Positions 38,758 to 42,172 of a stretch of 64,000 bases of DNA are shown piece by piece (the stretch's first letter is position 1; every line of letters starts with the position of its first letter). The DNA lies in assembly GCA_019235885.1 (NCBI GenBank), contig JAFAKB010000018.1:1-64000 (forward strand), in the 5' to 3' direction. The notes below the pieces were generated by a model. It was not told the origin of the DNA. It saw nothing but the letters and a program-made list of their open reading frames with translations, and searched no databases. Position numbers and translations under genes: made by a program. The stretch is from Candidatus Eremiobacterota bacterium (lineage in GTDB: Bacteria > Vulcanimicrobiota > Vulcanimicrobiia > Vulcanimicrobiales > Vulcanimicrobiaceae).

Positions 38758-39924
38758 TTGCGCGTCGTCGTCGCCCCGGACAAGTTCAAGGGCAGCCTGG
38801 ACGCGGCCGGCGTCGCGGGAGCCCTCGCCGCCGGCGTGCGCGACGTGCTGCCGAACGCGGAGTGCGCGCTGATCCCGATGGCCGACGGCGGCGACGGGAC
38901 CGTCGATGCGTTCCTTGCGACCGGCGCCGAGCCGCGACGCATGCGGGTGAGCGGGCCGCTCGGCGACCCGGTCGAGGCGACGTACGCGCGGGACGGCGCC
39001 ACCGCGATCGTCGAGATGGCGGCCGCGTCGGGGCTGGCGCTGCTCGGCCGGCCCCCGAGCCGGATCGATGCCCGGCGGGCGACGACGCGCGGGACCGGCG
39101 AGCTGCTGCGCGACGCGCTCGATGGCGGCGCGCGGCGGATCCTCCTCGGGATCGGCGGGAGCGCGACGACCGACGGCGGCGCGGGCGCCCTCGCGGCGCT
39201 CGGCGCCCGCTTCTACGACGGTGAGGGCGATGAGCTGGAGCCGACGCCGGAACGGCTGGCGGCGCTGACCCGGATCGACTTGAGCGGCCTGGAGCCGCGG
39301 CTGCGGCCGTCGCAGCAGACGGGCGAGCCCGAGGTCCGGATCGCGGTCGCCTGCGACGTCGACAGCCCACTGCTCGGGCCGCTCGGCGCGGCGGCGGTGT
39401 TCGGTCCGCAGAAGGGCGCCACCGCCGGCGACGTGGCGTACCTCGAGCGCGTCCTCGCGCGGCTCGCCGGCGCGATGAGCGCGGCAACCGGACGCGATCT
39501 GCGCGATATCCCGGGCGCCGGCGCCGCGGGCGGGCTGGGCTGGGCGCTTGCGAGCGCTTGCGGCGCGACGCTCGAGCGCGGCGTTGCGCTCGTCGCAGCG
39601 GTGCGCGGGTTGGCGGACGCGCTGCGCGGCGCGGACTGGTGCTTCACCGCCGAAGGCCGGATCGACGACCAGACGCTGCGCGGGAAAGTGGTCGCCGGCG
39701 TCGCGCAGCTCGCACGCTCCGCGAACGTGCCGGTGGTCGCGTTCGGCGGCAGCGTTGAGGGCGATGCCGAGATAGCGCTGCGCCCGCTCGGTGTGACGTG
39801 TGTACCGATTCTCACGAAACCGTCGTCGCTCGAAGTCGCGATGCACGATTCGCGTGCGAATCTGCGCTTGGCGGCGGCGCGCACCGTATCGCTGATAGCG
39901 CCACGCGAACGCGAGCACCATTAG
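38758..39924 (+). CDS. glxK: Glycerate kinase (GlxK/GarK type)
   Basis: A 388-residue glycerate 2-kinase from a TTG start. The family opening VVVAPDKFKGSLDAAGVAGA, the PMADGGDGTVDAFL block and GIGGSATTDGGAGALAALGA are all present, and GPQKGATAGDVAYLE lies near residue 220. It phosphorylates glycerate for entry into glycolysis after glyoxylate or glucarate degradation. Length is typical. No glyoxylate pathway neighbours are seen. The lanthipeptide locus begins 99 bp after its stop. Confidence 0.9.
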   Translation: MRVVVAPDKFKGSLDAAGVAGALAAGVRDVLPNAECALIPMADGGDGTVDAFLATGAEPRRMRVSGPLGDPVEATYARDGATAIVEMAAASGLALLGRPPSRIDARRATTRGTGELLRDALDGGARRILLGIGGSATTDGGAGALAALGARFYDGEGDELEPTPERLAALTRIDLSGLEPRLRPSQQTGEPEVRIAVACDVDSPLLGPLGAAAVFGPQKGATAGDVAYLERVLARLAGAMSAATGRDLRDIPGAGAAGGLGWALASACGATLERGVALVAAVRGLADALRGADWCFTAEGRIDDQTLRGKVVAGVAQLARSANVPVVAFGGSVEGDAEIALRPLGVTCVPILTKPSSLEVAMHDSRANLRLAAARTVSLIAPREREHH

Positions 39925-39980
39925 TACGCTAGCGGGCTTTGCTCGGTGGGGAATCGGAATATGCTCGCGAACGTCGCGCG

Positions 39981-39995
39981 GTCTGCATTGCAGAC
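39981..39995 (+). promoter_or_regulatory. Operator-like palindrome before the lanthipeptide precursor
   Basis: GTCTGCA-T-TGCAGAC is a perfect inverted repeat with a one-base centre, 29 bp before the precursor ATG. A weak -10-like TATGCT (39960-39965) with TTTGCT 16 bp upstream lies just before it, so a repressor bound here could block the transcript. No regulator gene is adjacent. Confidence 0.5.
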
Positions 39996-40023
39996 GTGCA
40001 CAGATCTACAACGGGAGTGACGT

Positions 40024-40191
40024 ATGCCAACCGAATATCGCTTCGACGACCTCGATCTTCGCGAGCAGCCTTCGCAGACCAGCGCGCGAGGACCAATGGC
40101 CGCTTTTTCGCAGCGCCCTACCTGCCAAAGTACGGACTGCAGCTTGACGGCTGCCTGCACGGACAGCTGCTGCACGGACGCTTGTTACTGA
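40024..40191 (+). CDS. Candidate lanthipeptide precursor (LanA-like)
   Basis: A 55-residue peptide preceded by CGGGAGTG. The leader (MPTEYRFDDLDLREQ) carries FDDLDLRE, close to the class I FNLD/FDLD motif that LanB and LanC recognise. The core from about residue 32 is Cys/Ser/Thr-rich: Cys at 34, 39, 45, 49, 50 and 54, with four [S/T]xxC motifs (STDC, TAAC, TDSC, TDAC), the spacing of small lanthionine rings. A LanC-like cyclase gene follows directly after a perfect hairpin. The core resembles no peptide I know, and the cleavage site is unclear. Identity is inferred from composition, leader motif and neighbour. Confidence 0.78.
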   Translation: MPTEYRFDDLDLREQPSQTSARGPMAAFSQRPTCQSTDCSLTAACTDSCCTDACY

Positions 40192-40201
40192 TCGACCGCG
40201 C

Positions 40202-41374
40202 TTGCGCGACGCACGCGTAGCGCAGCGCAACGGCGACCGGCGCCCGCTTCTGGCGGGCGCCGGTGCGCATCAGGCCCTCACGGCGGCGACGAGAATCTTC
40301 GCTTCCGGTCTGCCGTTCGTGCACGATTCGAATCGCGGCGCGTATCCCGGATCGGTCGACGGAGCGTGTGGCGCCATGTTGCTAGCGGACGCTCTCGTGC
40401 GCGCCGGGCGCGAGAACGCGAGCACCGTGCACGCGCTCATGCGCCGTGCACTGGTGTTCAGCGCCGACCGGCCGGGGCTTTACGACGGTGCCGCCGGACT
40501 GCTCGTCGCCATCGATGCCGTCGATCCGAGACGAACCTCGCTGGCGCAGGCGCGCGGCCAGCTGCGCGCACTTCTCGCGGCAGCGATCCGCAACGCGCCG
40601 CCGCCCGACGCCGGCGACCCAGATACGTACGATTTGCTCTACGGCGTCGCGGGCTGCGCGCTCGCGCTTCGCGACGACGAACCGGACGCGCTGAACGCGT
40701 TCCTCGCGTACGCGGAGCGCTTGGCCGACGTTGTCGACGAACGCATGGCGGCGCCCTCACGCTACCGCGCGGTGAACCTAGGCGTCGCGCACGGAATTCC
40801 TGGCGTGCTGGCGGCGCTCAACGCCGTATGTCCGCGACCGCATCCGCTGGCGCGCCGCTACACCGATGCAATCCTCGCGATGTCGCATGAAGTCGGCGGC
40901 GCGCGTCGCTGGGGCTCGTTGTGGGAGCCGCGTGCGGTGCCGTCCGCACGGCGCGCATGGTGCTATCAGACCGTCGGCGTCGCGGCCGTTCTCTACGACC
41001 GCGCGGTGCTCGACGGCGACGACGCGCTGCGCGCCCTCACCGTCCGCGCGGTGGACGCCCTGCTGCACGGTGAAAAGGATGGGCTCGGGCGGTTCGGGCC
41101 TTCGCTGTGTCACGGCCGCGCCGGCCTTGCGACGATCGCCTGGCACCTGGCGCCCGAAGGCGAGCGGTTCGTCCGCACGGCCCGAGCGCTGGCGGAGGCG
41201 GTGCTCGGCGAATACGACGAACACCGCGCGCTCGGGTTTCGCAGCGACTCCGCCGACGGGCTGGAGCGCATCGATTTCCTCGACGGCTCGTTCGGGATTG
41301 CGCTGTTCCTCGCCGATGCCGCGACCGGCGGCGCGCGCGGCTGGCTTCCGCTGCTCGGACTTCTGCCCGACTAG
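40202..41374 (+). CDS. LanC-like lanthionine cyclase
   Basis: Up to 390 residues. All seven GxxG-type LanC repeats are recognisable: SVDGACGAML, GLYDGAAGLL, DLLYGVAGCA, VAHGIPGVLA, WCYQTVGVAA, SLCHGRAGLA and FLDGSFGIAL. The zinc ligands are Cys-254 in WCYQ and Cys-303/His-304 in LCHG (numbered from the TTG). The usual WCYG is WCYQ here. LanC enzymes add Cys thiols to dehydrated Ser/Thr to make lanthionine rings. The start is uncertain: TTG at 40202, or GTG at 40319 after the hairpin. No LanB, LanM or LanT gene lies within 20 kb on either side, so dehydration must occur elsewhere or by a new enzyme. Confidence 0.85.
   Translation: MRDARVAQRNGDRRPLLAGAGAHQALTAATRIFASGLPFVHDSNRGAYPGSVDGACGAMLLADALVRAGRENASTVHALMRRALVFSADRPGLYDGAAGLLVAIDAVDPRRTSLAQARGQLRALLAAAIRNAPPPDAGDPDTYDLLYGVAGCALALRDDEPDALNAFLAYAERLADVVDERMAAPSRYRAVNLGVAHGIPGVLAALNAVCPRPHPLARRYTDAILAMSHEVGGARRWGSLWEPRAVPSARRAWCYQTVGVAAVLYDRAVLDGDDALRALTVRAVDALLHGEKDGLGRFGPSLCHGRAGLATIAWHLAPEGERFVRTARALAEAVLGEYDEHRALGFRSDSADGLERIDFLDGSFGIALFLADAATGGARGWLPLLGLLPD
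40237..40263 (+). promoter_or_regulatory. 11-bp perfect hairpin between precursor and cyclase
   Basis: CCGGCGCCCGC (40237-40247), loop TTCTG, then the exact complement (40253-40263). No T run follows, so it is more likely an attenuating or mRNA-stabilising stem than a full terminator. Such stems are common after lanthipeptide precursor genes, giving more precursor than enzyme. It lies inside the longest LanC frame, which argues for a later LanC start. Confidence 0.75.
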
Positions 41375-41416
41375 GCGGGCCCTCGCGGTGCCGCGTCGTA
41401 GCAACCGCGCAGGAGA

Positions 41417-42172
41417 ATGGTTCTGCTCGCACCGCTCGTCGCCGCGTTCCTCGGCGCGTCCCAGCTCGACGCGCCGCACGCCGCGCTGTACGACGTCCTG
41501 GCGCAAGGGACCGATGCCGGCGGCTGCGACGCCGCGCAACTGCGCAAGGCGGCCGCGAACGCGCCGATCCGCCCCCTCGGCAGCGCCGGCGGCGACCGCG
41601 TCGTGCTCGCCGAAGTGTTCGAGCCGTGCATCTGCGGCGCGCAGAACTGTCCGTACTACGTGCTGCGCCTCGGCGCCGGGAAGCCGCGGGTGCTGGTCTC
41701 CGGCTATGCGATCTCGGTCAAGACCAAGCCGGCGCCGCAGCTGCCGACGATCGTCGCGCGCATGCACGACAGCGCGATGGTCGTCGACGAATCGACCTAC
41801 ACCTATCGCAACGGCGCGTACGCGCTGACCGATTCCGCGCGCGTTCGCGGCGACACCGAAGCGCGCAAGCCGAACGACGCGCCGGTGCATTTCGCCGCGG
41901 GCGCGTCGTCGGCGAGCCTGCACGGCAGCATCTCGACCGGCTGGTACGACTCGTACGCCTTCGATGCGGCGCGCGGTCAGACGCTGTTGATCGACGGCGT
42001 GCGTTCAGGCGCCAAGCTCGTGCTGCACCTGAGCGTCCCGGACGGCGACCGGTTCACCGACGTGCGGCCCGGGACTCCTTTCACGCTTCCGAAGACGGGC
42101 ACGTATCACTTGATCGTGGACACCGACAGCGTGACGGACGTCCCGTACGCGCTGACGCTCGCCATTCGCTGA
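41417..42172 (+). CDS. Secreted beta-sandwich protein, unknown
   Basis: A 251-residue product with a hydrophobic N-terminus (MVLLAPLVAAFLGASQL). The middle holds a Cys-rich segment (EPCICGAQNCPYY) near residue 70. The last 110 residues (SASLHGSISTGWYDSYAFDA and LPKTGTYHLIVDTDSVTD) look like a bacterial pre-peptidase C-type jelly roll found at the ends of exported proteins. It follows lanC by 42 bp on the same strand and may be co-transcribed. A link to the lanthipeptide is possible but unproven. Confidence 0.65.
   Translation: MVLLAPLVAAFLGASQLDAPHAALYDVLAQGTDAGGCDAAQLRKAAANAPIRPLGSAGGDRVVLAEVFEPCICGAQNCPYYVLRLGAGKPRVLVSGYAISVKTKPAPQLPTIVARMHDSAMVVDESTYTYRNGAYALTDSARVRGDTEARKPNDAPVHFAAGASSASLHGSISTGWYDSYAFDAARGQTLLIDGVRSGAKLVLHLSVPDGDRFTDVRPGTPFTLPKTGTYHLIVDTDSVTDVPYALTLAIR

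Follow-up and report, generated by a model that had tools for sequence, protein, structure and literature searches.

The FDDLDL-leader peptide gene and the adjoining LanC cyclase gene described here most probably belong, as a satellite, to a class I lanthipeptide system that has a single dehydratase gene, located on a different contig; this LanB would act in trans. The window, that is, the whole stretch of 64,000 nucleotides analysed, comprises bases 1-64000 of contig C18 in a 4.5 Mb genome (G000; 105 contigs, 95.5% complete) from the uncultivated lineage Candidatus Eremiobacterota. The sequences are best read as a class I lanthipeptide locus in which the precursors are dispersed and one cyclase is a satellite, rather than as evidence of new dehydration chemistry. 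LanB enzymes dehydrate the precursor and LanC enzymes close the rings. We propose that the only LanB of the genome, on contig C96, would recognise the FDDLDLREEP-type leader of the window precursor and, by analogy with known LanBs, would dehydrate Ser/Thr residues of the core through glutamyl-tRNA. Either the adjacent LanC or one of two LanCs encoded beside the LanB (the hub) would then close thioether rings onto the six Cys. For this locus we infer that LanB acts in trans, that rings form and that the adjacent LanC prefers its neighbouring precursor.

The precursor and cyclase genes in the window

The features of the locus are as follows:

38758..39924, + strand: upstream neighbour, glycerate kinase (PF02595), a conserved flank
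39925..41416, no strand: segment that all 5 relatives examined lack at this site (flank comparison)
40024..40191, + strand: LanA-type precursor peptide, 55 aa, ATG start (held-out HMM and 19-member alignment)
40042..40071, + strand: leader recognition motif, FDDLDLREQP in the window precursor, whose consensus form is kept in 19 of 19 family members
40114..40188, + strand: Cys/Thr-rich core RPTCQSTDCSLTAACTDSCCTDACY, 6 Cys and 4 [S/T]xxC motifs, from a predicted core start
40202..41374, + strand: LanC cyclase, 390 aa, TTG start (PF05147, 78.4 bits; 46-48% identity to the hub LanCs)
40237..40263, + strand: 11-bp perfect hairpin in the LanC reading frame (pattern scan and fold score), function putative
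40961..41113, + strand: stretch with the zinc ligand codons, Cys254 at 40961-40963, Cys303 at 41108-41110 and His304 at 41111-41113
41417..42172, + strand: downstream neighbour, 251-aa protein with no Pfam match, a conserved flank

The initial annotation of this DNA had described a 55-residue ORF with a class I-type leader, six Cys and four [S/T]xxC motifs, and our analysis recovered the same ORF, motifs and counts. Its N-terminus reads MPTEYR, followed by FDDLDLREQP and the Cys/Thr-rich core; the total is exactly six Cys, and the [S/T]xxC motifs are at residues 36, 42, 46 and 51. The leader box is related to the FNLD-type box of class I, but is not FNLD letter for letter; the accessible parts of one source name the FNLD motif (PMC10352776). 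A profile built from the 18 other precursors of the family, with the window ORF omitted, was searched against 1129 six-frame segments of the window and matched this ORF at E=2e-17, with the runner-up at 0.42. Among the 172 window ORFs of 40-80 aa, it alone has at least six Cys in its last 24 residues. A chance ORF was ruled out by the profile match and this unique Cys content. The codon-usage gene caller skipped the precursor and placed the LanC start at 40376, so the ORF is backed by conservation, not by codon usage alone.

The LanC reading frame begins 10 bases after the end of the precursor, and its PF05147 score lies well above the cut-off of 23.2 bits. The residues D144, H197, C254, Y255, C303 and H304 are all present and align with those of the paralogues or of solved LanC-like proteins, and the three zinc ligands among them (Cys-254, Cys-303 and His-304) are those that had been assigned from the sequence alone. 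As in class I systems, this LanC is stand-alone and its Cys/Cys-His ligands are intact. By eye, the TTG start lacks a clear ribosome site, which counts against our best reading. The predicted structure is of low confidence (pLDDT 62, pTM 0.70), with LanCL2 and GCR2 as its sole matches at E<1e-3, and it contributes little past the fold.

A scan of the pair for promoters and terminators matched no sigma-70-type promoter and no terminator, which also counts against the preferred reading, and an Rfam search of 39800-41600 gave no match. The 11-bp perfect hairpin that the initial annotation had placed between the two genes does exist (the window has two places with perfect hairpins of such a length, and the region 40185-40290 has a fold z-score of -3.63), but it falls inside the LanC frame if LanC starts at 40202, the start to which the residue numbers of that annotation point. 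We rejected an intergenic terminator at this position, given its place in the LanC frame, the lack of a T-run and the absence of terminators from the scan. By eye, a perfect 7-bp inverted repeat, GTCTGCA/TGCAGAC, lies at 39981-39995, about 30 bp 5' of the precursor start, and is a possible operator.

The pair is absent from the corresponding site in related genomes. We compared the five relatives with near-complete matches at this site (G090, G091, G092, G093 and G096; the partial or weak matches in G088 and G094 were omitted), and in all five the flanking genes are spaced by 1-42 bp, compared with 1,492 bp in the window, where the pair intervenes. At the compared site the G092 glycerate kinase is cut by a contig end, and the downstream gene is duplicated in G093; the gene at 41417 is matched in 8 of the 11 genus genomes, G000 included. 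Repeats at the ends of the insert are GC-rich and of low identity, and none stands out at the boundaries. Absence in all five relatives, the missing promoter and an ORF skipped by the gene caller would also fit a former LanB cluster of which a decaying or unexpressed part is left. We regard such a remnant as unlikely, since both frames are open, the leader and the catalytic residues are intact, and other places in three genomes also carry lone family members that are intact.

The LanB hub and other dehydratase loci of the genome

The absence of a LanB gene from the window had been explained in two ways: by a dehydratase encoded at a distance, or by a different enzyme that makes Dha/Dhb and might define a new lanthipeptide type. 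A LanB search of the whole genome, as the initial annotation had advised, agrees with the absence and favours the first explanation over the second. PF04738 and PF14028 each gave a single match, both in one 994-aa protein on C96 (365.5 and 124.5 bits, respectively), a full two-domain LanB and the sole one in the genome. Its best solved relative is 5ehk (3.9e-51), an entry titled lantibiotic dehydratase that we take to be MibB. Two LanC genes flank the LanB (C96:4228-5400 and C96:8834-9949), and around it are six precursors that have the same leader as the window precursor (C96:8619, 9974, 10144, 10321, 10500 and 10681). These six precursors have LanB in their own gene cluster; the window pair does not.

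Several observations at this level count against our preferred reading. The assembly consists of 105 contigs, and the pair (C18) and the LanB (C96) do not share one. The hub has no evident transporter, and no C39 peptidase-transporter was found genome-wide in a search to which 8 of 14 controls responded.

The window LanC aligns with the two hub LanCs at 46% and 48% identity (47.5% and 46.0% by BLASTP), and the hub LanCs are 48% identical to each other. At these identities the window LanC is an old paralogue, not a recent copy. As the three enzymes stand at much the same distance from each other, a dedicated role for the window LanC is hypothetical, and this too counts against our preferred reading.

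Because a LanB was found on C96, we dropped new dehydration chemistry as the default reading. An unknown enzyme that makes Dha/Dhb at the locus, and with it a new lanthipeptide type, would be in keeping with a window that holds no dehydratase in a genome rich in lanthipeptide enzymes. We judge it very unlikely, because this genome has a cognate LanB with same-leader precursors and its other dehydratase loci accompany other peptides. Two class III LanKCs, with scores of 761.5 and 716.9 bits (cut-off 575), are encoded on C79 and C25, and neither these nor a LanL lies beside the window precursor; the peptides that accompany them have ILSLQ-type leaders. The class III loci extend over L010:6372-9265 and L011:4773-9598; the latter encodes three peptides that resemble one another and, downstream, a putative transporter. 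The LanM-type domain PF13575 (DUF4135) had no match in G000, but no control genome matched it either.

A search for class V enzymes, likewise advised earlier, did reveal a class V-like operon on C18, but one that stands beside an unrelated repetitive protein. Located at 70.3-72.2 kb, about 30 kb from the pair and 6-9 kb past the end of the window, it consists of adjacent genes for an APH-like kinase (68.3 bits with the LxmK model, cut-off 315), a HopA1-like protein (116.8 bits) and a LanC (LanC_like, 147.8 bits). Directly upstream of it is a 398-aa repetitive Cys/Thr-rich protein with repeats around TCPRNICTETI and QPTPTATFFHTCG. Protein and operon together lie at L009:5100-9457 (C18:69100-73457), 5-9 kb past the window end, and may form a class V-like system whose precursor is a giant one with many cores. 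As these genes adjoin one another on the contig that also carries the pair, their kinase and HopA1-like lyase could be imagined to dehydrate the window precursor, with a LanC closing the rings. This seems quite unlikely to us: the operon comes after that other ORF and not beside the window precursor, whose leader and LanC have their counterparts at the LanB hub, and G092 (83% complete) has a hub-type LanC as its sole LANC_like match despite three lone precursors. None of the LanKC and class V-like loci of G000 adjoins an FDDLDL peptide.

The precursor family and its dispersal

The precursor belongs to a family that we found by profile searches in 3 of 99 family genomes; across 149 phylum genomes, the same three genomes hold 19 precursors. 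All 19 fall within the genus of the window, in which 11 genomes were searched: eight in G000, seven in G092 and four in G090. Those in G000 are the six at the C96 hub, the one in the window and one alone on C23, and several family members likewise stand alone among unrelated genes. Because precursors with the same leader but different cores occur both at the LanB hub and alone elsewhere, one dehydratase would serve dispersed cores.

The leader is conserved at the amino-acid level, and all 19 members fit the consensus F[DE][DE]LD[LV]R[EV][EQ]P. Its ten codons vary mostly at base 3 (nine codons, against two at base 1 and one at base 2), and 556 of 678 pairwise leader codon differences (82%) are synonymous, compared with 21% for random substitutions; as the sequence pairs are not independent, this figure is a description and not a p-value test. 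The leader end has no Gly-Gly that is conserved among the 19 members. The 19 cores (661 residues) contain 12.9% Cys, compared with 0.9% in window proteins of more than 100 aa. So high a Cys content might also mark a metal-binding or disulfide-rich peptide that lies near LanC incidentally. That reading is, in our view, extremely unlikely, with two to six Cys per core under a fixed leader and a family that adjoins LanC or LanB in two genomes. The initial annotation had allowed for a precursor that is not conserved beside LanC homologues, or whose Cys form the zinc-binding pattern of a known protein family. We found the opposite on the first point, as the family adjoins LanC homologues in two genomes, and on the second the window peptide matched no family in Pfam or NCBIfam.

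In G092, a LanC and three precursors lie at a contig end (C38), and another precursor lies upstream of the start of a LanB on C236. This LanB, which is truncated where the contig ends, matches that of the G000 hub at 64%. The neighbours that both contigs have in common with G000 suggest that they are two sides of one hub. The three further precursors of G092 are alone, on C45, C179 and C352. Two lone precursors of this genome (L039:5740-5892 and L040:9224-9376), both near contig ends, share 461 bp at 91% identity, which would reflect either a recent duplication or a strain variant.

The four precursors of G090 (one each on C155 and C301, two on C455) are not near any LanB, and we detected neither a LanB nor a stand-alone LanC in this genome, which counts against our preferred reading, though the assembly, in 460 contigs, is just 74% complete. 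Its sole LANC_like protein is kinase-fused and class III/IV-like. One core type occurs in all three genomes (C96:10681, L037:9660 and C155). A single intergenic site carries precursors in opposite orientation and with unrelated cores in G092 (C352, L041:4440-4592) and G090 (C301, L043:5045-5179), and has no precursor in G000. In a nucleotide comparison, the satellite loci had little in common except the precursor genes, C45/C179 (G092), the C301/C352 flank and the LanC/hub genes. Downstream of the proton-pumping pyrophosphatase, G090 alone has precursors; in the other genomes looked at, this site is very different. A different LanB-like C-terminal fragment, with 30% identity to the hub LanB, occurs in L035 (G095:C114), in a genome that has no FDDLDL precursors.

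Relation to known lanthipeptide systems

The likeness to class I (LanB and LanC) systems lies in the two-domain full-length LanB, the stand-alone zinc LanC, the acidic/Leu leader box and the Ser/Thr/Cys core. In contrast to these systems, precursors and one LanC are located away from the LanB here, three LanCs accompany one LanB, and neither LanT nor LanP was seen at the hub. Class V (LxmK/LxmY type) resembles our genome in its kinase/HopA1/LanC operon of similar kind, but that operon adjoins an unrelated candidate precursor, and the window leader does not match.

Scattered precursors that depend on one promiscuous synthetase are described for the class II prochlorosins in the accessible portions of three sources (PMC10783134, PMC11251773, PMC7268733). 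Going by two of these partial texts, prochlorosins and cyanotins (ProcM, SyncM) share with our family the single synthetase, the conserved leader, the highly variable cores and the scattered precursor genes (PMC10783134, PMC7268733). They differ in that the present system has a LanB, separate cyclases, no conserved GG in the leader and a smaller number of precursors per genome (8, 7 and 4); it would operate in a similar way without belonging to the prochlorosins. On balance, we lean slightly towards a prochlorosin-like strategy in class I, in which a single LanB hub acts on genus-specific precursor cassettes that enter intergenic sites alone or together with a dedicated LanC. If so, new cores, and even core-specific cyclases, could be gained without moving the dehydratase.

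Full-text literature searches, which covered their sources in part, yielded no description of scattered class I precursors, and this is not proof of absence. In the portions available of one large survey, the range extended to at most 7 genes from LanC, and loci without a known dehydratase were discarded as unclassified (PMC7268733); under these limits, a locus of the present kind would be lost there. Any survey confined to the LanC neighbourhood would overlook scattered precursors. If the LanB acts in trans, class I systems too can be combinatorial and have separable cyclases, which would allow one to ask whether the cyclase or the core sets the ring pattern. LanC loci without an adjacent LanB are also described from Bacteroidales, where, as far as the excerpts of that study extend, no screened genome had a LanB (PMC10352776); the genome analysed here differs from these in having a LanB with cognate precursors.
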